Positions 5,251 through 21,546 of a DNA stretch of 21,692 bases are shown piece by piece (position 1 is the first letter of the stretch; each line of letters opens with the position of its first letter). A program made the translations under genes and the position numbers. The DNA comes from a virus. Below the pieces are notes generated by a model. That model worked only from the letters and a program-made list of their open reading frames with translations, was not told the origin of the DNA and ran no database searches. The DNA lies in IMG/VR virus record IMGVR_UViG_3300000597_000004, positions 1-21,692 of that record, one strand, 5' to 3'.

Positions 5251-5506
5251 CAGCAGCCCGCAACTCGGCTAACTTCAACTGTTCTTTTTTAAGCAGCTCT
5301 AACAGCTCCGGGAGGCGATCAATGGTCGCGGCCCGGAGTTGATTCTCGTCCACCTTGGTTTGACTGCTGATTTGGGCGGTGGCGCCAGCGGTCTTGGCCC
5401 GCAAGATCACCGAAAAATTGCTGTCCTGCCCATCGGTCTCCATGTCCATGATTTTTTGCAGTTCGCGAATCGAGGCATGGGTCAAACGGCGGAAATCGGC
5501 ATTCAA
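5243..5506 (-). CDS. Small helical protein of unknown function, last gene of late operon
   Basis: About 87 residues if it starts at the TTG at 5506-5504, which forms a TTGA overlap with the stop of the preceding gene, the same coupling pattern used across this operon. The open frame reaches further upstream, but that part is antisense-free shadow of the PurD-like gene. No ATG exists in the first part; a later ATG (MDMETDGQ) would give about 68 residues. The protein is mostly helical: LTHASIRELQKIM, then a Ser/Thr/Gln-rich middle ending KVDENQLR, then a charged amphipathic helix (LLELLKKEQLKLAELRAAAK). The pattern is loosely like the C-terminal part of small terminase subunits, but the evidence is weak. 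Its TAG overlaps the stop of the + strand primase-helicase by eight bases. Confidence 0.55.
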   Translation of the reverse strand: MNADFRRLTHASIRELQKIMDMETDGQDSNFSVILRAKTAGATAQISSQTKVDENQLRAATIDRLPELLELLKKEQLKLAELRAAAK

Positions 5507-6858
5507 ATCGCCGTCGTGTAAAGCATCCCGGTCGCGTAGCCATGCTGCTGAATCTTCGGAAGCTGGCGTGCCAAGCGCCTGCCGATATCCGTGCGCCACA
5601 TGGGGGAGTTGGGCACTGTCAAGCTTTCCAATCGGCGGTAAGCGGCATGTGCCGCGTCTTTCACCGTCGCCGCTACTCCCGTCATCACCAGCACGTAATC
5701 CCCCGCCGTCGCCGGGGTAGGCGCCCGGATCGTCGTGCCGTTCACCCGCCGCGGGCATTCCGCCAACATCATCTCGCATGGATGCAGGTTCTTCCATAGC
5801 CCCTGTTTGATCCCATAAATCGGAATCCCCCAAACTTCCCGGCGGGTTACGTGGCTGTAAGGATAGTCGGGCACGGACAACACGACCCCTATCGCTACGC
5901 TGTCGTAGGTCCAGATACTCGTGTCCATGCCGGTCAGCAGATTCTTCAGCCATTCGACGCTATCGCCTTGCAATAAGCCAAGCTGGATATTGTAAGTCGG
6001 CCAACCGACCCTAGTAGTAAACTCCAAAGGCCATGCCTGTCCCTTGGCATCGATAATACAATTAACGTCTATATAGCCCACATAGTTCTGTTTGTGTAGC
6101 TCCTGGGTAAGCGGCAGCAGCATCTTATCAGCCAGCTTAGATTTCTTGACGATCCGCAGTACCGTGCCCTGCTCGCCGGTTGCCACCCCCAGCTCGTTAT
6201 TCATCAACTTTTTGAACTCCCAATTCTCATGCCAGCCCTCGTTCCAGCCAAGCGGGCCGAACCAGCCACCGACTGCCATTTCCGATCCCTCGACAAAATC
6301 TTGCAGGATGAAATTCATTTTCTTGCCAAGCTTCTGCCAGCGCTCTAGCATGTAGAGCATGTCTTCCGGCGTCTTGGCACAATAGGACAATGCCTTGTTG
6401 TCTTCGTCGTTGGGTTTGGAGACAAAACGCCGGTCGTGTTTCTTCACGTAACTGATCGCAGCAGCATAGTCGGAGAATTCTTTTGACGGTATGGTGGCGA
6501 TGCCGGCTCTTCGGAGTATTTGCTGCCCAGTTATCCGGTCGTTTTCCCACTGTGACGTTTCCGTCGACGGACCTACAACATTGTTATTACCAAGAGTTGT
6601 CCGATGATTGTCGATGTCTCGCATATACTTCCTGTTGTCCGCTACTAGGACAACATCGGCCCACCGCAACCATGATTGAAATTCTCGTACGACTGTTACG
6701 AGACCCTGACCAATCTTCTCGGTCTTAGGCTTATCGGGAATGAAAATCTTTACTTCGTGACCCTCACGCTGCGCACGCATGGCGGGATCGAGTGCATTGC
6801 CGAGCGGATCAACGATCAAAAACCGCAGCCGTTTCCATGCTTGCTGTAGATGTTTCAT
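5503..6858 (-). CDS. PurD-like ATP-grasp protein (divergent phosphoribosylamine-glycine ligase homologue)
   Basis: A 451-residue protein with the full layout of PurD (GAR synthetase, about 430 residues): an N-terminal Rossmann-like part (LRFLIVDPLGNALDPAMR), an ATP-grasp core and a PurD-type C-terminal domain. ATP-grasp residues visible are K148 (FVSKPN), Q186 to E190 and E193 (QDFVEGSEMAV), D264/N266 (GYIDVNCIID) and E279 (PLEFTTRVGWPTYNIQ). The C-terminal part has GDYVLVMTG, then AAYRRLESL and MWRTDIGRRL, close to the PurD end 'YR-DIG'. The PurD signatures GREHAL, the glycine-rich GLAAGKG loop and GPNTGGMG are absent or changed, and EFN reads EFT. It is therefore probably an ATP-dependent ligase with a changed substrate. 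It starts by ATGA overlap with the large virion protein gene. Homology is clear; substrate and role are not known. Confidence 0.8.
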   Translation of the reverse strand: MKHLQQAWKRLRFLIVDPLGNALDPAMRAQREGHEVKIFIPDKPKTEKIGQGLVTVVREFQSWLRWADVVLVADNRKYMRDIDNHRTTLGNNNVVGPSTETSQWENDRITGQQILRRAGIATIPSKEFSDYAAAISYVKKHDRRFVSKPNDEDNKALSYCAKTPEDMLYMLERWQKLGKKMNFILQDFVEGSEMAVGGWFGPLGWNEGWHENWEFKKLMNNELGVATGEQGTVLRIVKKSKLADKMLLPLTQELHKQNYVGYIDVNCIIDAKGQAWPLEFTTRVGWPTYNIQLGLLQGDSVEWLKNLLTGMDTSIWTYDSVAIGVVLSVPDYPYSHVTRREVWGIPIYGIKQGLWKNLHPCEMMLAECPRRVNGTTIRAPTPATAGDYVLVMTGVAATVKDAAHAAYRRLESLTVPNSPMWRTDIGRRLARQLPKIQQHGYATGMLYTTAI

Positions 6859-11102: not shown

Positions 11103-11621
11103 TTACTGGATGCAAACAAAGCCTAACCCTACTGTGCCGTTGAGCGCATTAGCAGCATGGGTATTGGTAAGGCTTACAGTAAGCGTACCGGCTCCTGTAG
11201 CACTAACCAAAGGTACCGGATAGCCATTAGTCACGAGCGTACCGCTGTAAGAAACAACCCATGCTTGGCAAACACTGGTAGCAGTCACCAAAGTATTATT
11301 GATGACAAAGTTAGCATTGGTAGCGGCAGCCGTCGTAAGCGTACCAGTCGTAACCAAGCCACGTTGGGCGTTACAAGTCTGCGGCGAAGCTCCGGTCGCC
11401 GTGCAATAACCACCCATCGAGTAAATGACTGGAATATTGTTGTTTAACGATGTAGGAGCGCCGTTAAGGGTTTGCAGCAAGGTATTGAGCGTTGCGACGA
11501 GCTGCGATGGTTCGTTGTATGTCGGTGAAATGGGAATCAGCGGCAAACCACCACTAAAGCCAAGAGCAGCACCGAATACTGCCCCCAAAAAGACTGCGGC
11601 CGTCACAAGAAGTTTGCGCAT
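11103..11621 (-). CDS. Secreted or virion-associated protein with signal peptide
   Basis: A 172-residue protein. Residues 1-22 are a Sec-type signal (MRKLLVTAAVFLGAVFGAAL) with two N-terminal positive charges and a hydrophobic core; the cleavage site is unclear (after A-L-G at 21 or nearby). The mature part has a helical piece (EPSQLVATLNTLLQTLNG) followed by Thr/Ala/Asn-rich beta-type sequence and four cysteines (C73, C83, C118, C170), the last next to the C-terminus. The beta-rich second half (STGT-, VSLTNT-like stretches) looks like a small fibre or adhesin tip. It has a good Shine-Dalgarno site (GGGAGAA) and sits just after the collar fibre gene. The first-half pattern 'QLVATLNTLLQTLNG' resembles the start of phage tail proteins. 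No enzyme motif is seen. Confidence 0.65.
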   Translation of the reverse strand: MRKLLVTAAVFLGAVFGAALGFSGGLPLIPISPTYNEPSQLVATLNTLLQTLNGAPTSLNNNIPVIYSMGGYCTATGASPQTCNAQRGLVTTGTLTTAAATNANFVINNTLVTATSVCQAWVVSYSGTLVTNGYPVPLVSATGAGTLTVSLTNTHAANALNGTVGLGFVCIQ

Positions 11622-11642
11622 GCTCGTTCTCCCTGGCCTATC

Positions 11643-12719
11643 TTAATACTTAATCTGCTTGTTCATCAAGATAATTGGCGGAAGATTGGTATGTGCCGCT
11701 CCGCTGCCAAAAGCATTGCCGGTAAAGCTGGGGGTGCTGGAAACAACGGACGTGGAATCATCTGCTTGGTTGCTGTCACCAGTGCGGACGACAAAAAATG
11801 TAGTTGGGGCAATGGTACCTTGGGACATGCTACGCATATGCGCCGTAATGGTCGGTTGGCTTATTGTGCCGGTTGGAGTGATCACGGGAAGCTCAGTTAT
11901 AGTTAAAACATGGTTTTGACCGCCCCCGGAACCGAGTAGCGCCGTGCCGTCGAAATTGCCCCCCGCGACAGTAATACGTCCGGACCCGCCAGAATCAATC
12001 ATTCCGATTACGCGCCCGCGCGCATCGGGCAATTGAAAATTGCCGGCTGTGCAGCTCCCCGCAGCAGGGGAACCAAACTTTAACCAAAGCGCAGTAAAAA
12101 CCGTAGTTGAGACGCACGTTCCTTGTAGCAGTAGCCAACCTGCGTCACCTGTTGCTGAAATCGTATCAATCACAGTCCCAACCGGAAATGGAGAAAGATT
12201 AGTACTTAACTGAAAATTAGCACCATCATAAACAACCTCGGTAATTCCTTGGTTGAGAATTTCAAACCCCTGAAGAGACTGAATTCCGTCAGTCGTGCGT
12301 CGTGTAATAGCAGTAGCGGGCGTACTGCCAATTTGTAAGGTTGCTGGTCCGGTATTAGCAAAACCTGCCTTGAAAATAACCTTGTAGCCAAGGGTCAAAG
12401 TAAAATTAGGAGGCGAGGTCGCAGTAACAACTTGCGCGTTTTGCGTTCCTGTGGATGTACCGATCCCAACAAAAACGGGAGACCCGCCTTGAGATGGTGG
12501 AATAGGTGTCGTCAAACCACCTAAAGACGTAATATCGCTGTTAGCTCCTGCCGCCGCTGCACTGCCCAAGCAGGTAACCAAGGCATTATAATTTGCCATA
12601 ACTTGACTTGCGTCAGCTAACTGCCCGTTAACCAAATTGAATGGCAACGTACAAGCTACCCCAGCATGAGCAAGCTTGCTGAAGAGCAGAAATAACAACG
12701 CTAGACCGAACTTTCTCAT
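11643..12719 (-). CDS. Tail-collar-domain fibre protein with signal peptide
   Basis: A 358-residue tail fibre. Residues 1-19 form a signal peptide (MRKFGLALLFLLFSKLAHA) with an AHA cleavage site. Residues about 108-172 hold a common phage-tail repeat unit (FANTGPATLQIGSTPATAI, then VVYDGANFQL). Residues about 180-240 form a phage tail collar domain (GTVIDTISATGDAGWLLLQG, then FQLPDARGRVIGM), and the C-terminus (HTNLPPIILMNKQIKY) is the usual end of collar-type fibres. The mature chain has four cysteines (C23, C50, C202, C223), of which the second pair lies within the collar domain. Collar fibres contact the host surface. A signal peptide on one is unusual. The start overlaps the stop of the hub gene by ATGA (12716-12719). 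Confidence 0.85.
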   Translation of the reverse strand: MRKFGLALLFLLFSKLAHAGVACTLPFNLVNGQLADASQVMANYNALVTCLGSAAAAGANSDITSLGGLTTPIPPSQGGSPVFVGIGTSTGTQNAQVVTATSPPNFTLTLGYKVIFKAGFANTGPATLQIGSTPATAITRRTTDGIQSLQGFEILNQGITEVVYDGANFQLSTNLSPFPVGTVIDTISATGDAGWLLLQGTCVSTTVFTALWLKFGSPAAGSCTAGNFQLPDARGRVIGMIDSGGSGRITVAGGNFDGTALLGSGGGQNHVLTITELPVITPTGTISQPTITAHMRSMSQGTIAPTTFFVVRTGDSNQADDSTSVVSSTPSFTGNAFGSGAAHTNLPPIILMNKQIKY

Positions 12720-14392
12720 GCTGCTGCCTGTACGTCGGTAAGGAATTTGAGTTTCTGTAGCATCAACCGCAAAGTTCCAAGCTTGATCGCAGAAGCAGAC
12801 TGCCCATTAGCTTCAAAAAATCCGCGCGAAAAACTAAGTGCGTTACGCCAAGGCAATCGCCGTGGTGCAAGAGCAAGCAAACTTGACCCCCATACTGATG
12901 ATCCCCAATTAAACTGCCCCCATATTGCACTACTTCCAGTCGGAACAATTTGAATGCTATCTATAACCACTCCTTGCTGGTCTTGAAAGTTTATAGCTAT
13001 AGGTGGAGTTGTAGCAGCAAAAGCAAGATCAAACGTTGTTTGCTTTACGCTGTAATTTGACATGATATCCAAGTCAGGCAACAAAGTTGTCTGATATATC
13101 CAAGTCATCTGTAAACCATTTTCAACAAATGCACCAGATAAAGACTGAACTGTATCGCTTTGCCAAATTTTTGCTGGAATGCCTACTCCTGTCAGCAAGA
13201 AAGAAGCTTGAAAAGGCTGAATCAAAGCTGCTGGAAATGTATGCGGTCCGGTCCAGATACCGCGTGAAATATGATACCACCATTCCTGCTGCTGTTGGGT
13301 TACCAAAGGATTTTGCACAGTCACCCTGATAACATCTACATTACATGCGGCTACTGCACGTGAAGGCACTGCCACATTGATAAACGGCACGACGATCCCT
13401 TTACCATCTACGCCAATTGGATCAGAAATATTTGCCTGAAAATCAATGATCCGAAGTCCATCAGGAGCCAAAAAAGCAAGTCCTTTAGGAGTACTGCAAA
13501 CACTTAACGGTGAACGAGTTCCAGTTGCGAAATTCATCGCATTAAGCGTAAGGTTATTAAGCGCAGAATCTCCGGTGAGTTGATAAGTGTTTGATACTCC
13601 CTTGAATATAATTAAAGCCTGAATGATACCACCTAACTGATTGAACAAACGTAATTGCCCAAGCGCAGTTAAAGGAATAGTATCGCCAAAGGTAACAACT
13701 TGAGTAGCGTTCGTTACATTGAGAGGATTAAAAATATCAGAAAAAACTACTGCTGGCTGCACTACGACATTGACAATGTAATATGCTCGTCCATTGAATT
13801 GCGCGACAAAAGTCGGAGGGATTGAAAACGTAATCGCTCCGGTCAAATTGCCGGCATTCCAAACTGGAGCTGTCGGCGTAGTAAGATCAAACCAGCCAAA
13901 CATAGAAGAAGTTGCAGAAAACCCCGGATGCGTCACTACCAACTTGGTTCCGATCAAATCCATAATCGGAGGTGTCCAAGGTCCGCTAGTAGGTTGACTC
14001 TGCGGTACGTTGCTTGAGGTCACACCCGAAACAGTAATAAAAGTATTTGTGCTCAAATTAAAACAAAAAGGCGTGTCAAAGCCGGTTGCTGTGTTTCCTA
14101 TCATTCCATAAACTAAATTACTAAAAATATGAAATACCGAAATAGTGCCCGCAGTAGAACTTGTTCCAGCAGTCTGAAAACCCGAGCTAAAACCCGAACT
14201 AAAACCCCCACCCATCATTGTCGCATCAATTAATTTAATTGCCGCTGGACGACACTGAAATAAACCGGATGTAGAAGGATCAGGAATCAAATTAGTAAGA
14301 AATGTCATTGCCCCTTCAAAAGCAGATGACGAATCAAGTGTGTCCGATACACCACGCGGTCTCCACACCAAAGGTTGCGCATTTCTGATCAT
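12716..14392 (-). CDS. P22 gp10-like tail hub / packaged-DNA stabilisation protein
   Basis: A 558-residue beta-rich protein with no signal peptide. Its N-terminus (MIRNAQPLVWRPRGVSDTLD, then FLTNLIPDPS and a CRPAA motif) matches the start of P22 gp10-type and related podovirus hub/nozzle proteins, and the length is somewhat above the 472 residues of P22 gp10. The body contains repeated beta-propeller-like elements (GWFDLTT, FNGRAYYIVN, LGQLRLFN, KGLAFLAPDGLRIID, WWYHISRGIW). The gene follows the gp4-like adaptor two genes upstream, as expected for a short-tail head-to-tail connector. It is coupled to its neighbours by ATGA overlaps at both ends (14389-14392 and 12716-12719). The role is sealing the portal after packaging and carrying the tail fibres. 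Confidence 0.75.
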   Translation of the reverse strand: MIRNAQPLVWRPRGVSDTLDSSSAFEGAMTFLTNLIPDPSTSGLFQCRPAAIKLIDATMMGGGFSSGFSSGFQTAGTSSTAGTISVFHIFSNLVYGMIGNTATGFDTPFCFNLSTNTFITVSGVTSSNVPQSQPTSGPWTPPIMDLIGTKLVVTHPGFSATSSMFGWFDLTTPTAPVWNAGNLTGAITFSIPPTFVAQFNGRAYYIVNVVVQPAVVFSDIFNPLNVTNATQVVTFGDTIPLTALGQLRLFNQLGGIIQALIIFKGVSNTYQLTGDSALNNLTLNAMNFATGTRSPLSVCSTPKGLAFLAPDGLRIIDFQANISDPIGVDGKGIVVPFINVAVPSRAVAACNVDVIRVTVQNPLVTQQQQEWWYHISRGIWTGPHTFPAALIQPFQASFLLTGVGIPAKIWQSDTVQSLSGAFVENGLQMTWIYQTTLLPDLDIMSNYSVKQTTFDLAFAATTPPIAINFQDQQGVVIDSIQIVPTGSSAIWGQFNWGSSVWGSSLLALAPRRLPWRNALSFSRGFFEANGQSASAIKLGTLRLMLQKLKFLTDVQAAA

Positions 14393-14613
14393 TGACCAAC
14401 CGGCTTTTGTTCTTTTGCTTTCTCGCGCGCCTGTGCTTCACGCTGAATAGTTTGTAGAATTGTTTGTATCTGTTGATGAGCACGCGCACTCGCCGGAACC
14501 TCGCCTAGTGCTTGCGTCATGGTTTCCCACAAGTCACGGTCTGGCGGCACATAAGGCGTTTGGGCAAACACCGGTGTTGCCAGCAACAAAAAAATACAGC
14601 TAATTCGTTTCAT
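14389..14613 (-). CDS. Short secreted protein with signal peptide, unknown function
   Basis: A 74-residue protein starting at ATG 14613, which lies inside the end of the preceding gene (14-base overlap). A longer open frame upstream belongs to the preceding gene's shadow. Residues 1-17 are a signal peptide (MKRISCIFLLLATPVFA) with a VFA cleavage site; there is no lipobox cysteine, so it is not a lipoprotein. The mature part is about 57 residues: a Pro/Tyr/Asp turn (TPYVPPDRDLWETM), a helix and a Gln/Glu/Lys/Ala-rich coiled coil (QTILQTIQREAQAREKAKEQ). It is flanked by tail genes and translationally coupled at both ends. It could be a tail or periplasmic assembly factor; a spanin subunit is considered but nothing specific supports it. 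Confidence 0.6.
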   Translation of the reverse strand: MKRISCIFLLLATPVFAQTPYVPPDRDLWETMTQALGEVPASARAHQQIQTILQTIQREAQAREKAKEQKPVGQ

Positions 14614-16135
14614 AGGAACCGCCCAATTGAAATGCTTGACTATTGGCGCCCGTAAACGTTCCATCGGCAAATCGGAATACGCAAGATGTCGAGTTTGGGC
14701 TGGCAACCCCTGCAAGGCTCTTGCCGCTAATTCCTCCCTCTACAGCGCTTCCGCAATATTGCGAATTTGCAATGTTAACCGTCGCTATCGGTAAAGTAAC
14801 ATTGAAACTCGTCGCACATGCGCTATTAACATTGATAGAAATGAACGCAGACCATATCACAATTTTACCGAACTGTTTGGAGCGACCATTTAGTGCTGTA
14901 TATGTTGCGCTGCCAGAACCGCAAGTCGGCGTTGGCGTGAAAGTTGTCCAGGCGGTATTATCAGCAACTAACGCGCCGCCCGCATAATATCCGTTTTGCA
15001 CATTTAATGTTCCTACTCCCTTAAATCCACCAGTTACAACACTACCAGCGCCATAAACCACAGCACCATTTGCTAGGCCGAATTGCGCAGTTAAGGCACC
15101 AGCATTCACTGTTTGAAAGTTTACAGAGCTGGAAGGCGTTGCAACACTAGTGGGATCATTGACAGTCAAACATTGCAAGAAAAACTCGCCCGCCGCACCG
15201 CCATTGTTATCACCGAGCATCGCAAGACATATAGGCACATCCCCCGCTACACCCGCTCGTCCAGAAACATGCCGGCCAAAAGTAATTAAAACCGGGTCTA
15301 AGTTGTTACTTACGCCAGGAATAAGCGACAGACCGGTAACGGTTGCCCCGCCGGTAGATACGTCAGTCATTGCTATATCAGTAAGGCCACCTGAAGCAGG
15401 AGGACGCACATCCCATGCAATATTAGCAGTTCCTCCCCCGGTAATTGGATCACAAATAACCGGTAAATTTTGCCCACTTGACGCATTTACAAACACAACT
15501 GGATTTTGCAATGTCGTATTTTGCCGTAATGCAGTGCAAAAACCGATTGCTACCTTTGCAGCAGTATCGCCTACTACATCAGTATAACTAATCGTGACGC
15601 CAGTAGCGCCGCCGATATTTGCTCCAGTAAATTTTACCGCATGAACAGCGCCAACCCCAATAGTACCCCCAAACGTTGCATTAACGCCTTGACCCTGCGC
15701 ATTGCTGCCAAGAACATTAAACGGATAAATATTGTTACCTGTCCAATTAACGTTTTGATCCAAAGCCGAAATTACATGTCCCGATACTTCAGGTGGAGCA
15801 GTAAAAGGACCGCTGCTACCTATACAAGTTGAACCCGTAAAAGCAGGCGAGCACGGATAACTAACAATATTAGCAGTATCTACCAAAGCCAACGTTGGCG
15901 AAGCAGCAATTGGCAAGCAAGGTGGAGTTGGGCTGCCAACAGTACCGGTACAATAAAATGCCGTCGAATTAGTGATGTCGTTGGTAATATTACGTAAATT
16001 AAGTGGAGTTATTAAACCGGTAGTGTTATCGGGAAATTGCGCAGTAATCTCGGCAAGAATTGTAGAACGACTCTTCTGCGCGTAAGCAGAAGTCGATAAA
16101 CATAAAGCAAAAAATACAGGTAAAAATTTCTTCAC
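14600..16135 (-). CDS. Large tail/fibre protein with signal peptide and paired cysteines
   Basis: A 511-residue protein from GTG at 16135 (GTGA overlap with the preceding stop; a second GTG one codon earlier is possible). Residues 1-19 are a signal peptide (MKKFLPVFFALCLSTSAYA, then Q20) with a clean AYA site. Residues 22-57 hold the phage-tail N-terminal motif LAEITAQFPDNTTGLITPLN and LRNITNDITNS. The rest is Gly/Thr/Asn-rich beta sequence. The C-terminal part (WTTFTPTPTCGSGSATYTAL, then a 'GSYE' end) resembles the trimerising tip of many tail fibres. The mature chain has 12 cysteines at about 62, 73, 95, 104, 200, 228, 303, 322, 405, 440, 461 and 485, arranged in neighbouring pairs. This pattern suggests disulfides formed outside the cytoplasm. 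It follows the gp4-like adaptor gene. Confidence 0.75.
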   Translation of the reverse strand: MKKFLPVFFALCLSTSAYAQKSRSTILAEITAQFPDNTTGLITPLNLRNITNDITNSTAFYCTGTVGSPTPPCLPIAASPTLALVDTANIVSYPCSPAFTGSTCIGSSGPFTAPPEVSGHVISALDQNVNWTGNNIYPFNVLGSNAQGQGVNATFGGTIGVGAVHAVKFTGANIGGATGVTISYTDVVGDTAAKVAIGFCTALRQNTTLQNPVVFVNASSGQNLPVICDPITGGGTANIAWDVRPPASGGLTDIAMTDVSTGGATVTGLSLIPGVSNNLDPVLITFGRHVSGRAGVAGDVPICLAMLGDNNGGAAGEFFLQCLTVNDPTSVATPSSSVNFQTVNAGALTAQFGLANGAVVYGAGSVVTGGFKGVGTLNVQNGYYAGGALVADNTAWTTFTPTPTCGSGSATYTALNGRSKQFGKIVIWSAFISINVNSACATSFNVTLPIATVNIANSQYCGSAVEGGISGKSLAGVASPNSTSCVFRFADGTFTGANSQAFQLGGSYETN

Positions 16136-16854
16136 CACCCCACCTGCTTGGTGTTGCGCAGACGATCAAATGACGTACCGAAACGTCGCCGGTCCAAACG
16201 TACATAAGTTCCGCGATTTTCCCGGTCTCCAGTCATCTTCAAATACCTGCGCAACAACGTTCCTGCCCCGCCGGGGTAACGCTCATCGTCATCACCCAGC
16301 AAAGACTGTGCCCGATCATCATCAAGACCTACACACATCTCACCCGTCAGTCGGCGCAACAAATAAAGTTGATTGGGAAACCAAGGAATACTTCCATCTG
16401 CCGGCACTGGAACATCAGGCATAATTGCTTGATAGCGAACAAGCGCTTGATAAGCTCCGCTTGGCGGCATCCAAAAATAAGCAATAGGCGGTACCTTTGA
16501 AGTATCAACCGCAAATGAAATCGGAAAATTAGAAAGCCCTGCCGTCACTACCATTTTGTCCATCTGATCAAGATCGATGGGAATTAATTCATAAGGAACG
16601 CCTTGTATCCAATAAAAACAATCGTTGGGTTTAGCACGAAGATAATCAGCAGGAAAAGGCATTGTCGCCCGTCCAAACGAATCAACAATAGTTGGAAGAT
16701 TAAAATAAAAATCTTTTTGGGACGCACTAACATCCCAGTCCTGATAAAGTTCTTGAAGAATTAAGTTAAGTTTTTGCGCCCCTTGCAGCACATAACCGGG
16801 CACGTTCGCATCTTGGCATGCTTGAGCCACAATCTGCAAAGAAGTAAGTGGCAC
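16132..16854 (-). CDS. P22 gp4-like head-to-tail adaptor / head completion protein
   Basis: A 240-residue protein starting at GTG 16854 (MPLTSLQIV), one base after the preceding TGA. The N-terminal half has the pattern LQGAQKLNLILQELYQDWDV and an aromatic strand (DFYFNLPTI) followed by PFPADYLRAKPNDCFYW, typical of P22 gp4-type connector proteins that sit under the portal. The C-terminal half is helical with GEMCVGLDDDRAQSLLGDDDE and ends in an Arg-rich tail (RLDRRRFGTSFDRLRNT) of the kind that binds the portal. P22 gp4 is 166 residues, so this copy is longer. Its place between capsid genes and the tail fibre/hub genes supports the role. The next gene overlaps its stop (GTGA). Confidence 0.7.
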   Translation of the reverse strand: MPLTSLQIVAQACQDANVPGYVLQGAQKLNLILQELYQDWDVSASQKDFYFNLPTIVDSFGRATMPFPADYLRAKPNDCFYWIQGVPYELIPIDLDQMDKMVVTAGLSNFPISFAVDTSKVPPIAYFWMPPSGAYQALVRYQAIMPDVPVPADGSIPWFPNQLYLLRRLTGEMCVGLDDDRAQSLLGDDDERYPGGAGTLLRRYLKMTGDRENRGTYVRLDRRRFGTSFDRLRNTKQVGW

Positions 16855-17323: not shown

Positions 17324-17769
17324 TACACACCTAATAAAGTCTTACTTGCAACATTGATCTGGTTTGGTCCGATCCTAAGCTCGCGCGGCTTACGGTAAAA
17401 ATTACGATTAGCTCCGCCGATCTCATCCTCATGCTCCCAACAGCGCCGCATTTGCTCACGCATCGAAGCAGCTTGCAAAGCCGTCACGCGATAAGTAAAA
17501 GCGTGAATATATTCTACTCCATCGAATAAAAGCCGCACCGCATGACCGGGTAAATCAATCAATACATCTTCAAACTGCTCTGCGGGCCTATGCCGGCGAC
17601 GCTCATGCGTCAACGCCTCTTCAAGAAAAGCTTCCTCTGCTTTGCTTTTTCTTTCTTCGGCAACATGCGCCCGTGCCTTGTCAAGAATGCGCTGCTTCTC
17701 TTCATCATCAAGCGCAGCAAACTCAAGCCGATCAACAAAGTCACGTGGCAATTCGAACTTCTTGTTCAT
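17323..17769 (-). CDS. Hypothetical phage protein, head region
   Basis: A 148-residue protein beginning at ATG 17769, four bases (ATGA) into the preceding gene's stop; an in-frame TTG four codons upstream is less likely. The N-terminal half is helical and highly charged (MNKKFELPRDFVDRLEFAAL, then LDDEEKQRILDKARAHVAEE). The C-terminal half is beta-rich and aromatic (VLIDLPGHAVRLLFDGVEYI, then a helix with REQMRRCWEHEDEI) and ends in a basic/Asn-rich part (NRNFYRKPRELRIGPNQIN). No family is recognised. It is coupled to both neighbours by overlapping stop/start codons and belongs to the head module. Confidence 0.65.
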   Translation of the reverse strand: MNKKFELPRDFVDRLEFAALDDEEKQRILDKARAHVAEERKSKAEEAFLEEALTHERRRHRPAEQFEDVLIDLPGHAVRLLFDGVEYIHAFTYRVTALQAASMREQMRRCWEHEDEIGGANRNFYRKPRELRIGPNQINVASKTLLGV

Positions 17770-18062
17770 GTATGCACCCAACTTGCACCGGCAGCCGCAG
17801 CGGCCGAGAGAAGAATGGGAAAGCCGGTCGCTGGATCAAAGGCGACATAATCACCTTCAATGCAACGCAATACTCCACGATTGGGAATACTCAACAAACC
17901 CTTCTGCGAATAAGCACCCGGCCAAATTGGCCGACCGTTAATCTGATCGTTCAAGATCGAAGTCAAGAACGTCGCCACATCTGCCGGAATGTAATCGTTG
18001 GTGCCGACAACCATAGCCGTAAGCGTGGTTGTCGCCGCCGTACCAAGCGTACGTGTCGCCAT
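17766..18062 (-). CDS. Small hypothetical virion protein, head region
   Basis: A 98-residue protein from ATG 18062, which shares one base with the preceding TGA (TGATG). The N-terminus is Thr/Ala-rich (MATRTLGTAATTTLTAMVVG), the middle contains a helix (PADVATFLTSILNDQ) and a beta part with Trp, Tyr and Gly (GRPIWPGAYSQKGLLSIPN, VLRCIEGDYVAFDPATGFP), and the C-terminus is Ala-rich. The compact beta-rich middle could be a capsid decoration protein or stopper, but nothing specific shows this. It directly follows the two paralogous genes. Confidence 0.6.
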   Translation of the reverse strand: MATRTLGTAATTTLTAMVVGTNDYIPADVATFLTSILNDQINGRPIWPGAYSQKGLLSIPNRGVLRCIEGDYVAFDPATGFPILLSAAAAAGASWVHT

Positions 18063-18364
18063 CAACCACCTCCACTAGCAAATCCTTGAATTTGCCCTAG
18101 CGTTGGCTGCGCATTCATCTGCGCTGCGATATCTGCCGCCATAGCATTGGTCAACGTAGTAATGTCAGCCGCTTGAATGATCCCGCCAGCACCGGTTCCT
18201 TGTAAATTTGTACCGGCAAAATTTTGCGTATTAAATAGCGCCTTAGTTTGCGCCAAACCAGAACCGCCAACAGGACCGGAAAGCGGCCCGACTGGATCAC
18301 TCATAGATCCAGTACCCGGACCAATCCAGTCAACCCAAGCCGCATAACGAAGACGATAAGCCAT
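18062..18364 (-). CDS. Small virion protein, second copy of a tandem pair
   Basis: A 100-residue protein starting at ATG 18364 (TGATG overlap with the preceding stop). A longer open frame upstream is shadow of the first copy. It begins MAYRLRYAAWVDWIGPGTGS and ends LTNAMAADIAAQMNAQ plus a Gly/Ser tail; the middle is Gly/Pro/Leu-rich (VGPLSGPVGGSGLAQTK) and then Asn/Gly/Thr-rich. The same beginning and end are found in the gene just upstream, so the two arose by duplication. The C-terminal helix is alanine-rich and probably oligomerises. The position directly after the capsid gene suggests a minor head or decoration protein. No described family is recognised. Confidence 0.7.
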   Translation of the reverse strand: MAYRLRYAAWVDWIGPGTGSMSDPVGPLSGPVGGSGLAQTKALFNTQNFAGTNLQGTGAGGIIQAADITTLTNAMAADIAAQMNAQPTLGQIQGFASGGG

Positions 18365-18654
18365 CAGGAGCCTCCTGTAGCAAAGCCAGCTAATCGCGTG
18401 AGAATAGCATTCATTTGCGCCGCGATATCGGCTGCCATTGCATTGGTCAACGCAGTGACATCTGCCGTCGCCAAAGCACCACCCGTACCAGTACCTTGAA
18501 TGTTTGCCGTGTTCGCACTGGCGTTGAACTCCAATGTCTGCCCGGTACCGGAAGACCCCAGTTCCCCGGCAAGCACTGCGGCTGCTCCACCCATTGGACC
18601 TAGGCCAGGGGCAATCCAATCAACCGCCACTGAGTAACGAAGTCGATATGCCAT
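18364..18654 (-). CDS. Small virion protein, first copy of a tandem pair
   Basis: A 96-residue protein with ATG at 18654, sharing one base with the capsid gene's TAA (TAATG). An open frame 30 codons longer would run into the capsid gene and lacks support. It begins MAYRLRYSVAVDWIAPGLGP and ends with LTNAMAADIAAQMNAI, matching the next gene at both ends; the centre diverges more (GGAAAVLAGELGSSGTGQ). It is likely a head decoration, stopper or other capsid-associated protein because of its position right after the capsid gene. The shared N-terminal tyrosine/arginine/tryptophan motif (MAYRLRY, VDWI) may be the contact surface. Confidence 0.7.
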   Translation of the reverse strand: MAYRLRYSVAVDWIAPGLGPMGGAAAVLAGELGSSGTGQTLEFNASANTANIQGTGTGGALATADVTALTNAMAADIAAQMNAILTRLAGFATGGS

Positions 18655-20006
18655 TAGCCGAACACGAGGTTGAAGGCAGACGTTGATTCGATTCGCATTG
18701 CAAACTGTTGGTTTTGAATTAACGTCCCATAAAACGCTTTCCAACCAACAATCCTCAACTGATTAATCGGATCAGACTTATCCGCATCTTTCAGATAACT
18801 AAATTTCACGTCATCAAGAACAACCTGACCATAAGAACCACGACCGAAGATAAAAGTTGGATAGATCGTAACACCAACACCCGGTGTTGCAGGCGGAACT
18901 TGGGCCATGCCGATACCGGTAATAATTACGGTTTGACCGGGTGCGAGCTGCGTCGCCTGCCCCTGCATTGGTCCGGTAGTTGGACCGGAAGCGCTCAACC
19001 CAAGATTAACCGGAGCTGTAGCCGAACCAGTACCAACATACACGTTGAACGTAAAACCAGCGAGTGCAGGCAATACCACAGAAATTGAACCGTTTGGCCC
19101 CGTTACCGAAATTGGACCGGAAGCCGCATAAATACGACTCTCATACTGATTCTGCGTATCTGACGCGGTGACGATAATAAAATAGTTTGCGTTAGTAGCA
19201 AGACTGCCGGAAGTTCCGGCTGTACCGGTAATAGCAGCGACCCCAACAAACGTTGGAACCAAGTTCGAAAGACAAAAACGAATGCCACTCCACTCACCAA
19301 TCTCATAATTATACAACCGATTAATATCCGAATACGACCACGCAGTATTGATACGCGCATCTTCACGAAGATCGCCAGCTACAAATGGATGCATCACCGC
19401 CACATAGTGCGGCATGGCACGTGGATTGGTAGATGCCTTCGCTCCACCCGAATCGGCAGCAATTTTGGTATCGGTCATCTCGTCGCCGGAATAACGCGGC
19501 GCACCGAGCGTAACCAGCATTGCAAAAGCGCGATTAAGCTCGTGCACATTCAATACATCACCAGCAACCAATGCACCGCGCGATCCACGCGCATTCACAT
19601 AATTTATCTGTGCAAAAGCCATCAACGCATTAAATGTGTTTCTCTCGAAAGTCTCGGCAACTTGAAGCCCGGTCAACTCAATTGCTTTTTTGAACAAAGG
19701 ATGTTTGATCGTAATTTCTGCAACATCGGTTACAGTAATCTTGTCACCCCATTGTAACGCTGTTGCCACGACTTGCTGGATCGTCATTATTTCGCCAACC
19801 GGCGGCACACCTTCGGACAAAGGCGCAAAAGGAAGCGGCACGCGCTGATAGCGCGTTGCGGTATAGGTTGTACCTCTGCCGTGAGGCAGCTCTAAGGGAT
19901 CACCGAATTGATAAACAACAAGCTGACGCCGTGCGAGCGGTAACGTCTTGTCAGCAATATAAGCCTCAATATCAGCCTGAAAGCTGGGAGCGGTATTGAT
20001 TGGCAT
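18654..20006 (-). CDS. Major capsid protein, N4-gp56 family, with inserted Ig/FN3-like domain
   Basis: A 450-residue capsid protein of the N4-gp56 type (HK97 fold). The N-terminal half has FERNTFNALMAFAQINYVNA, ALVAGDVLNVHELNRAFAML, HYVAVMHPFVAGDLREDARI and EIGEWSGIRFCLSNLVPTF, an order known for this family; the end has VVLDDVKFSYLKDADKSDPI and QLRIVGWKAFYGTLIQNQQF. Between about residues 255 and 366 lies an extra roughly 110-residue Gly/Thr/Ser-rich segment (GSLATNANYFIIVTASDTQN, then FTFNVYVGTGSATAPVNLG) that looks like an Ig/FN3-type beta domain probably exposed on the shell surface. The start is ATG with GAGG at six bases. It follows the scaffold gene by 15 bases. No cleavage of an N-terminal pro-piece is evident. 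Confidence 0.9.
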   Translation of the reverse strand: MPINTAPSFQADIEAYIADKTLPLARRQLVVYQFGDPLELPHGRGTTYTATRYQRVPLPFAPLSEGVPPVGEIMTIQQVVATALQWGDKITVTDVAEITIKHPLFKKAIELTGLQVAETFERNTFNALMAFAQINYVNARGSRGALVAGDVLNVHELNRAFAMLVTLGAPRYSGDEMTDTKIAADSGGAKASTNPRAMPHYVAVMHPFVAGDLREDARINTAWSYSDINRLYNYEIGEWSGIRFCLSNLVPTFVGVAAITGTAGTSGSLATNANYFIIVTASDTQNQYESRIYAASGPISVTGPNGSISVVLPALAGFTFNVYVGTGSATAPVNLGLSASGPTTGPMQGQATQLAPGQTVIITGIGMAQVPPATPGVGVTIYPTFIFGRGSYGQVVLDDVKFSYLKDADKSDPINQLRIVGWKAFYGTLIQNQQFAMRIESTSAFNLVFG

Positions 20007-20914: not shown

Positions 20915-21103
20915 TCACTTTTCAGCTTCAGCTTTGGGCTCTTCTACCGTAGTTTCTTCTAAAATAGGGCCTCGCACCAATTCTAAATGAAAACTCCGTA
21001 ACTTATTAGCCACGCTTTCAACAACTTCCCACGCACGCATCAAAATGGCCGTATCGAGTTCATTCATCATAACTTGAAGCCGACTTAGTTCATTTACTGT
21101 CAT
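20915..21103 (-). CDS. Small helical protein of unknown function
   Basis: A 62-residue protein starting within the stop of the preceding gene (ATGA, 21100-21103). The first two thirds form amphipathic helices (LSRLQVMMNELDTAILMRAW, then ESVANKLRSFHLEL), the end is acidic and Lys/Ala-rich (ETTVEEPKAEAEK). No family is recognised. It is encoded between the peptidoglycan-binding-domain protein and the scaffold and ends just before the regulatory spacer. Small helical proteins at this place may be assembly factors, but I have no direct evidence. Confidence 0.6.
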   Translation of the reverse strand: MTVNELSRLQVMMNELDTAILMRAWEVVESVANKLRSFHLELVRGPILEETTVEEPKAEAEK

Positions 21104-21546
21104 GGCACCTTCACCTTGATCCTTTCCGCAGGAGGACGATTTGCTTCGCTGATCAGCGCTAAATAAGTTTGCTCGTCAACCCAACCATGTTGGGGCAAAC
21201 CTTTGATGGCTTGAAATGCCTTAACAGTTTGTGTCGTTGTTACGCCCCAATAACCATCAAGCACAAGATTAGCACTAAGCATATTTAATAAACGCTGTAC
21301 TCCATAAGTAAAACCAGCACTCAGCACTGAAACTGCCGCATCGAGACGTAACGCTGGATCGAGCAAAGGAAACAAAGTATTTGCAAAAGCCTGCAAAGCT
21401 GCCGGTAATAATATCGGTTTTCCGGTAAGTTCGCTTGTTGTTGGAATAGCAGAAGCAATCGGCAAACCAGCAAGCAACCGTTGCTGTAGCTTATCCCATA
21501 TCACCAACAATTCTTGAATGATCTGGATGGTCTGAAGCTGATCCAT
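21100..21546 (-). CDS. Protein with C-terminal peptidoglycan-binding-like domain, head module
   Basis: A 148-residue protein. Residues 1-80 are helical and hydrophobic-amphipathic (IIQELLVIWDKLQQRLLAG, LQAFANTLFPLLDPALRLD) with no clear transmembrane stretch or signal peptide. Residues about 83-133 match the PG_binding_1 fold: VQRLLNMLSANLVLDGYWG, then TVKAFQAIKGLPQHGWVDE and TYLALI, with the usual D-G-x-W/F-G, F-Q and G-x-V/hydrophobic positions. There is no attached hydrolase. In phages this domain is normally in endolysins, and finding it alone between the portal end and the scaffold is unusual. It starts three bases after the preceding TAA, using GAGGT as a ribosome site. Confidence 0.7.
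   Translation of the reverse strand: MDQLQTIQIIQELLVIWDKLQQRLLAGLPIASAIPTTSELTGKPILLPAALQAFANTLFPLLDPALRLDAAVSVLSAGFTYGVQRLLNMLSANLVLDGYWGVTTTQTVKAFQAIKGLPQHGWVDEQTYLALISEANRPPAERIKVKVP

Follow-up and report, generated by a model that had tools for sequence, protein, structure and literature searches.

Predicted Sec Signal Peptides on the Tail Fibre Proteins of a Group of Phages Known from Metagenomes

Tail Module and Predicted Signal Peptides

The analysed stretch of DNA (hereafter the window; 21,692 nt or 21.7 kb) comprises positions 1 to 21,692 of the IMG/VR virus record IMGVR_UViG_3300000597_000004, and its minus strand carries five consecutive tail-region genes, four of which start with predicted Sec-type signal peptides. 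They code for a first fibre protein of 511 amino acids (14600-16135), a small, probably helical protein of 74 amino acids (14389-14613), the tail hub/nozzle (12716-14392), a collar-type tail fibre of 358 amino acids (11643-12719), and a third fibre-module protein of 172 amino acids with four cysteines (11103-11621). The GTG start codon of the first fibre gene overlaps the stop codon of the head-tail adaptor gene (16132-16854, also on the minus strand), and the start codon of the collar fibre gene overlaps the stop codon of the hub gene.

Signal peptides were scored by a home-made rule for Sec/signal peptidase I substrates, calibrated on controls, and not by SignalP. Of 529 phage proteins used as controls (hub, adaptor, capsid, scaffold, and others), 4 passed the rule with their own annotated starts, which is taken as its false-positive rate; when the first 60 residues of the fibre relatives were shuffled, 6–10% of the resulting sequences passed. 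Among the 26 window genes tested, only the four fibre-module genes and the small gene at 17766-18065 passed; the latter match was weak (score 2.96) and was taken as false. The first fibre protein begins with MKKFLPVFFALCLSTSAYA↓QKS (the arrow marks the predicted cut; signal of 19 amino acids, 16079-16135, AYA↓Q), the 74-amino-acid protein with MKRISCIFLLLATPVFA↓QTP (17 amino acids, 14563-14613, VFA↓Q), and the collar fibre with MRKFGLALLFLLFSKLAHA↓GVAC (19 amino acids, 12663-12719, AHA↓G). All three combine a basic start and a hydrophobic core with a clean cleavage site. The third fibre-module protein (MRKLLVTAAVFLGAVFGAALG) also has the basic start and the hydrophobic core, but its cleavage site is ambiguous (GAALG↓F) and the segment could be an uncleaved anchor; in some other phages, the signals of its relatives end in AFA↓GGVP. 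By the same rule no signal was found in the hub, in the adaptor, in the major capsid protein (18654-20006, minus strand), which served as a control, or in the other head genes apart from the weak match mentioned above. A lipobox was looked for in all four signal-bearing proteins and found in none; with no lipobox cysteine at position +1, lipoprotein-type superinfection exclusion proteins were ruled out for the four. Judged from their sequences, three of the four proteins clearly have the features expected of Sec/signal peptidase I substrates, and the fourth has them with an uncertain site. An earlier, sequence-only reading of the region had proposed Sec-type N-termini on four of the five genes, three AXA-type ends (AYA, VFA, and AHA), and signal-less hub and head proteins, all of which was borne out within these limits.

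Identity of the Hub, Adaptor, and Fibre Proteins

The structure model of the hub (predicted local distance difference test, pLDDT, 84.8) has the hub/nozzle fold of P22 gp10 (E value 7.7e-12, template modelling score about 0.6), and the hubs of Sf6 (gp8), Pa223, and VP1 were matched as well. Because of these matches, the window phage most likely is a podovirus with a P22-type short tail. The adaptor resembles the SU10 adaptor, with a match below the Pfam cut-off.

For the collar protein, a model of modest confidence (pLDDT 69.7) supports a fibre-type tail protein by fold: its C-terminal half matches the tips of T4 gp12 and gp37 and the A-1(L) fibre, and its middle domain matches a Pa193 fibre (Z scores 8.0–8.6). 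The window protein scores 19.6 bits against the Pfam Collar family (PF07484), which is below the cut-off of 24, and a relative in locus L102 reaches 26.9 bits. A signal-bearing collar relative in L019 contains an S74 chaperone domain, and a signal-less collar-domain protein (L174, 1628-3196) is equipped with an Mtd second domain. The N-terminal domain of the first fibre protein is related to phrog_3614 (E value 4.8e-4, residues 22–62). A small, full-length member of this family, gp14 of the Escherichia coli phage Golestan, is signal-less, starts at the domain, and is encoded directly after the head-tail adaptor. The sequence match thus supports a domain shared by the first fibre with proteins encoded beside head-tail adaptors. 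The designation of the set as collar-type fibres in the sequence-only reading is supported as far as the fold of the collar protein and the adaptor-linked domain of the first fibre are concerned.

No lytic domain was detected in the signal-bearing window proteins by a Pfam scan, and the helical 74-amino-acid protein could be a lysis accessory. In two related loci, probable endolysin genes, recognized by eye, are located in or adjoining the signal-bearing fibre module (L002, 8971-9495; L014, 17207-17662), an arrangement that would be consistent with fibre export being tied to lysis.

Conservation of the Signals Among Related Phages

About 200 loci were gathered from hub relatives and from searches that used the mature collar domain, stripped of its signal, as the seed. 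The hub relatives share 34–57% identity, and the signals recur in their phages, which form a large group known from metagenomes. Pass rates were high for the fibre roles (collar 93/143, first fibre 17/25, third family 15/17) as compared to the adaptor (0/86), capsid (2/69), and scaffold (1/39); the hub reached 9/115 when alternative starts were allowed. The eight first-fibre matches scored without a signal consist of five adaptor-fused and three signal-less proteins. Among the 106 collar-domain copies scored, 71 carry a signal and 35 do not. These comparisons show the predicted signals to be a conserved, yet not universal, trait of the phage group; the recurrence proposed as a check on the sequence-only reading was found across the relatives, with the signal-less third of the collar-domain copies as its limit.

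In the collar copies, mean identity is 17% in the signal segment versus 72% in the adjoining domain, while hydrophobicity is kept. An alanine at position −1 with a fitting residue at −3 is located at the right place in all 71 signal-bearing copies, a count that reflects the availability of a site rather than an unbiased frequency, since only alanine was permitted at −1 in the search. Low identity combined with retained hydrophobicity and a site in place is expected of a signal and not of a docking element. The signals also co-occur within phages, as 22 of the 28 loci whose collar protein bears a signal had another signal-bearing gene, against 5 of 20 otherwise (P = 3e-4). Small signal-bearing proteins with a coiled-coil-like sequence occupy the position of the 74-amino-acid protein in L081, L093, and L240; a profile search of the relatives with the window protein itself yielded no homologue.

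Signal-Less Copies and the Cysteine Pair

The signal-less copies show where the domains begin when no signal is present. In collar copies the predicted cut most often lies 15 amino acids before an ADA motif, and the start methionine of signal-less copies most often lies 16 amino acids before it. The signal-less first-fibre domains of Golestan gp14 (MAKTK) and L066 (MAAST) align with the ↓QKTK of signal-bearing copies, and one member of the third family (L195) likewise starts where the cut protein would. The N-termini predicted after cleavage match those of the signal-less relatives. Most of the 35 signal-less copies have no room upstream for a signal. Two loci contain both forms, with a signal-bearing collar copy carrying a cysteine pair followed by a short (80–83 amino acids) paralogue of the docking domain that lacks signal and cysteines (L014, 10138-11231; L019, 12151-13486).

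In the window protein, the conserved collar N-terminal domain lies between Cys23 and Cys50 (12570-12653). This flanking cysteine pair is present in 54 of the 71 copies with a signal and absent from all 35 without one; the corresponding numbers are 40/57 and 0/33 for viral contigs alone, and 13/23 and 0/24 after dereplication of the viral set (P = 8e-6). L073, which lies inside the otherwise signal-bearing clade of the window, has neither the signal nor the pair. Among the first-fibre proteins, cysteines close to the domain were confined to signal-bearing or adaptor-fused copies. Raw cysteine percentage was rejected as a marker of role, as it gave no clean split (adaptor 1.07%, collar 1.19%), and the positional pair was used instead. 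The best tree of the collar domain, which is poorly resolved owing to the shortness of the domain, implies 13 signal switches, 3 of them forced by supported branches, and none runs against the association of cysteines and signal. A tree-based paired test found three supported pairs only, too few for power. The link between cysteines and signal is therefore strong but not fully independent evidence. Confinement of the pair to signal-bearing copies suggests real translocation into an oxidising compartment, and the pattern of cysteines that are allowed or selected only behind a signal would be best explained in this way. It provides backing for the export postulated by the sequence-only reading, which had not considered this marker.

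Adaptor Fusions, Cellular Relatives, and Host Search

In five of 86 adaptor matches, the adaptor and the first fibre are fused in frame without a stop codon (L028, 2442-4265; L037, 697-2385; L039, 1271-3706; L049, 1626-3005; L080, 483-2720). A hydrophobic stretch with an AXA site at its end joins the two parts, and four of the five fusions carry cysteines of the exported type. The fusions could represent either a polyprotein that is cut by signal peptidase or genes with internal initiation.

Signal-bearing collar-domain proteins with the cysteine pair were also found outside phage modules in alphaproteobacterial genomes (L105, L109, L111, L112, L115, L118, and L122). In L105, L115, and L118, a neighbouring gene codes for a protein of 1190–1564 amino acids with RHS repeats; such RHS-repeat neighbours occur in Mesorhizobium and Reyranella genomes. 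No convincing hub gene of this type was detected in the alphaproteobacterial genomes tested, whose proteins may represent an extracellular fibre system that is either ancestral or domesticated.

Searches of isolated phages with the collar N-terminal domain gave no match for one consensus query and only Klebsiella matches with E values >1 for another, and the hub had no match in the same collection. For the order of G008 (Paraburkholderia), the class of G001 (Mesorhizobium), and the phylum of G005, further hub searches covered 399, 385, and 398 genomes, respectively. These searches recovered only the already known G008 and G005 and one fragment, so that no host was found for the signal-bearing phages. 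The prophage-like copies that were found in the family of the window (Paraburkholderia, L129 and L130; Methylococcaceae, L120) are all signal-less.

Three further features of the window were recorded. An ATP-grasp gene (5503-6858; GARS-like, below the Pfam cut-off) adjoins genes of ejection-type proteins. Beside the capsid gene, two adjacent small genes with alike starts (MAYRLRY; 18062-18373 and 18364-18672) are an apparent tandem duplication. A protein with a peptidoglycan-binding domain (PF01471) is encoded at 21100-21546, upstream of the scaffold and capsid genes.

Proposed Two-Compartment Assembly and Its Alternatives

Export of the fibre proteins is well supported by these sequence comparisons. 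The sequences and models show conserved signals, the folds of the hub and the collar fibre, the link between cysteines and signal, and matching mature N-termini; translocation itself, removal of the signal, disulfide bonding, incorporation into the virion, and the time of docking are inferred. On balance it seems probable, by a modest degree, that the fibres are exported by Sec, processed and disulfide-bonded in the periplasm, and joined to the particles at or after lysis. Capsid, adaptor, and hub would be made and assembled in the cytoplasm, while the fibre proteins would be made as precursors with cleavable Sec signals and moved across the inner membrane. In the periplasm, signal peptidase would trim them and, in many members, disulfides would form. 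Trimming would leave the N-terminus of the cytoplasmic relatives, so that the docking surface would be preserved and the same docking domain presented. Once lysis opens the inner membrane, the fibre would meet a fibreless particle and dock on its hub or adaptor. Such late attachment appears feasible because the tailspikes of P22 and the fibres of T4 are also added to particles that are complete in other respects. Real translocation best explains why a detachable signal precedes a docking-type domain that is found with and without it. Whether these phages stand for a wider class of tailed phages, in which disulfide-bonded exported receptor-binding fibres join fibreless particles at or after lysis and fibres from one cell could be shared among the particles of the lysate, is in our estimate an even question.

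Several points weigh against this proposal. The home-made signal rule is a weakness, and the fourth signal of the window has no clear cleavage site. With only three forced switches on the tree, much of the association between cysteines and signal could reflect shared descent, and 17 signal-bearing collar copies without the pair indicate that export has reasons besides disulfides. As judged from the hub-less alphaproteobacterial genomes, the signal-bearing domain can function in settings other than the phage particle. The signal-bearing phages are uncultivated and known from metagenomes. Among the three uses offered by the sequence-only reading (addition during or after lysis, a coat on the host surface that blocks superinfection, and storage away from the capsid), none is singled out by the sequence comparisons.

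Virion incorporation is not required by export alone, and the exported proteins might instead be presented at the surface of the infected cell or shed from it, where they would mask receptors against superinfection or act on the surface. The relatives beside RHS-repeat proteins in Mesorhizobium and Reyranella indicate that an extracellular, non-phage role exists for the domain. We nevertheless regard this explanation as unlikely, since the genes are placed between those of the adaptor, the hub, and internal virion proteins with overlapping stop and start codons, signal-less relatives at the same place include the protein with the Mtd second domain and the adaptor-adjoining Golestan gp14, and Collar and S74 domains are characteristic features of fibres in virions. 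The adaptor fusions, with their hydrophobic AXA-ending segment and, in four cases, exported-type cysteines, would fit a different scheme in which tails dock at the inner membrane and obtain the exported fibres before lysis, perhaps via membrane-tethered adaptors. Such a scheme is improbable: the fusions are restricted to five of 86 adaptor matches, internal translation starts could account for some of these fusions, and we know of no precedent for a tail in the cytoplasm that crosses an inner membrane still intact.

The two remaining explanations deny that the N-termini are signals. Hydrophobic virion segments that act on membranes occur in other phages, and the N-termini could accordingly be structural pieces for docking or membrane penetration. 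This is very improbable given that identity drops to 17% while the signal shape is kept, that an AXA-type site lies at the right place, that 35 copies of the domain do without the segment, and that the cysteine pair tracks the segment. Least probable are chance or misannotation, with hydrophobic starts created by wrong start codons. Alternative starts do raise the hub matches to 9/115, but only 4/529 controls pass with their own starts, most signal-less copies have no upstream room, and the signals are kept across dozens of divergent contigs; at the family level this explanation was rejected by the role-rate and own-start controls.

To our knowledge, the virions of tailed phages are held to assemble wholly in the cytoplasm. 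Assembly in two compartments, if true, would add a second, extracytoplasmic step, would allow disulfide-stabilised fibres and fibre exchange between particles in the lysate, and would keep receptor-binding parts from the interior of the producing cell. Searches of an open-access library, itself incomplete, turned up no account of a set of fibre proteins that is exported, in agreement with the view of the sequence-only reading that no such system had been described. Absence of signal peptides has been taken as support for a phage origin (PMC6199706). If fibres are indeed exported, the finding of such a signal on a fibre-like product of a prophage would be no proof that the protein is cellular.

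Comparison with Known Systems

The window proteins share parts with several known systems. The collar protein resembles T4 gp12 (short tail fibre), the tip of T4 gp37 (long tail fibre), and the fibres of cyanophage A-1(L) and of Pa193 in the fold of its C-terminal half or middle domain and in a collar-type domain, the latter scoring below the Pfam cut-off in the window protein. As far as is known, these fibres are synthesized in the cytoplasm and carry no Sec signal, whereas most relatives of the window type bear a signal and many have the cysteine pair. The short tails of P22 and Sf6 (gp4 adaptor, gp10/gp8 hub, separately added tailspike) have in common with the window phage the hub fold, an adaptor and hub encoded in one gene block, and a separate receptor-binding part, which in P22 is a tailspike that is made in the cytoplasm and is not known to carry a signal peptide. 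Golestan gp14, representing phrog_3614 in the Guernseyvirinae, has the same N-terminal domain as the window first fibre and the same location directly after the head-tail adaptor, but has neither signal nor cysteines and carries its methionine at the mature start. A relation to Mtd-type receptor-binding proteins (Bordetella phage BPP-1) extends to the signal-less L174 protein with its Mtd second domain and not to the window protein, which has none. The alphaproteobacterial proteins beside RHS-repeat genes share signal, cysteine pair, and ADA..V domain with the window type, but their genomes are without this hub type and they are not part of this phage type. SAR (signal-arrest-release) endolysins are phage proteins that use Sec and act at lysis (PMC3765740). 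Together with the spanins they resemble the proposed fibres in Sec use and in action at lysis, but they are lysis enzymes or membrane-spanning lysis proteins, whereas the window proteins appear to be fibre proteins with predicted signals of the cleavable type.

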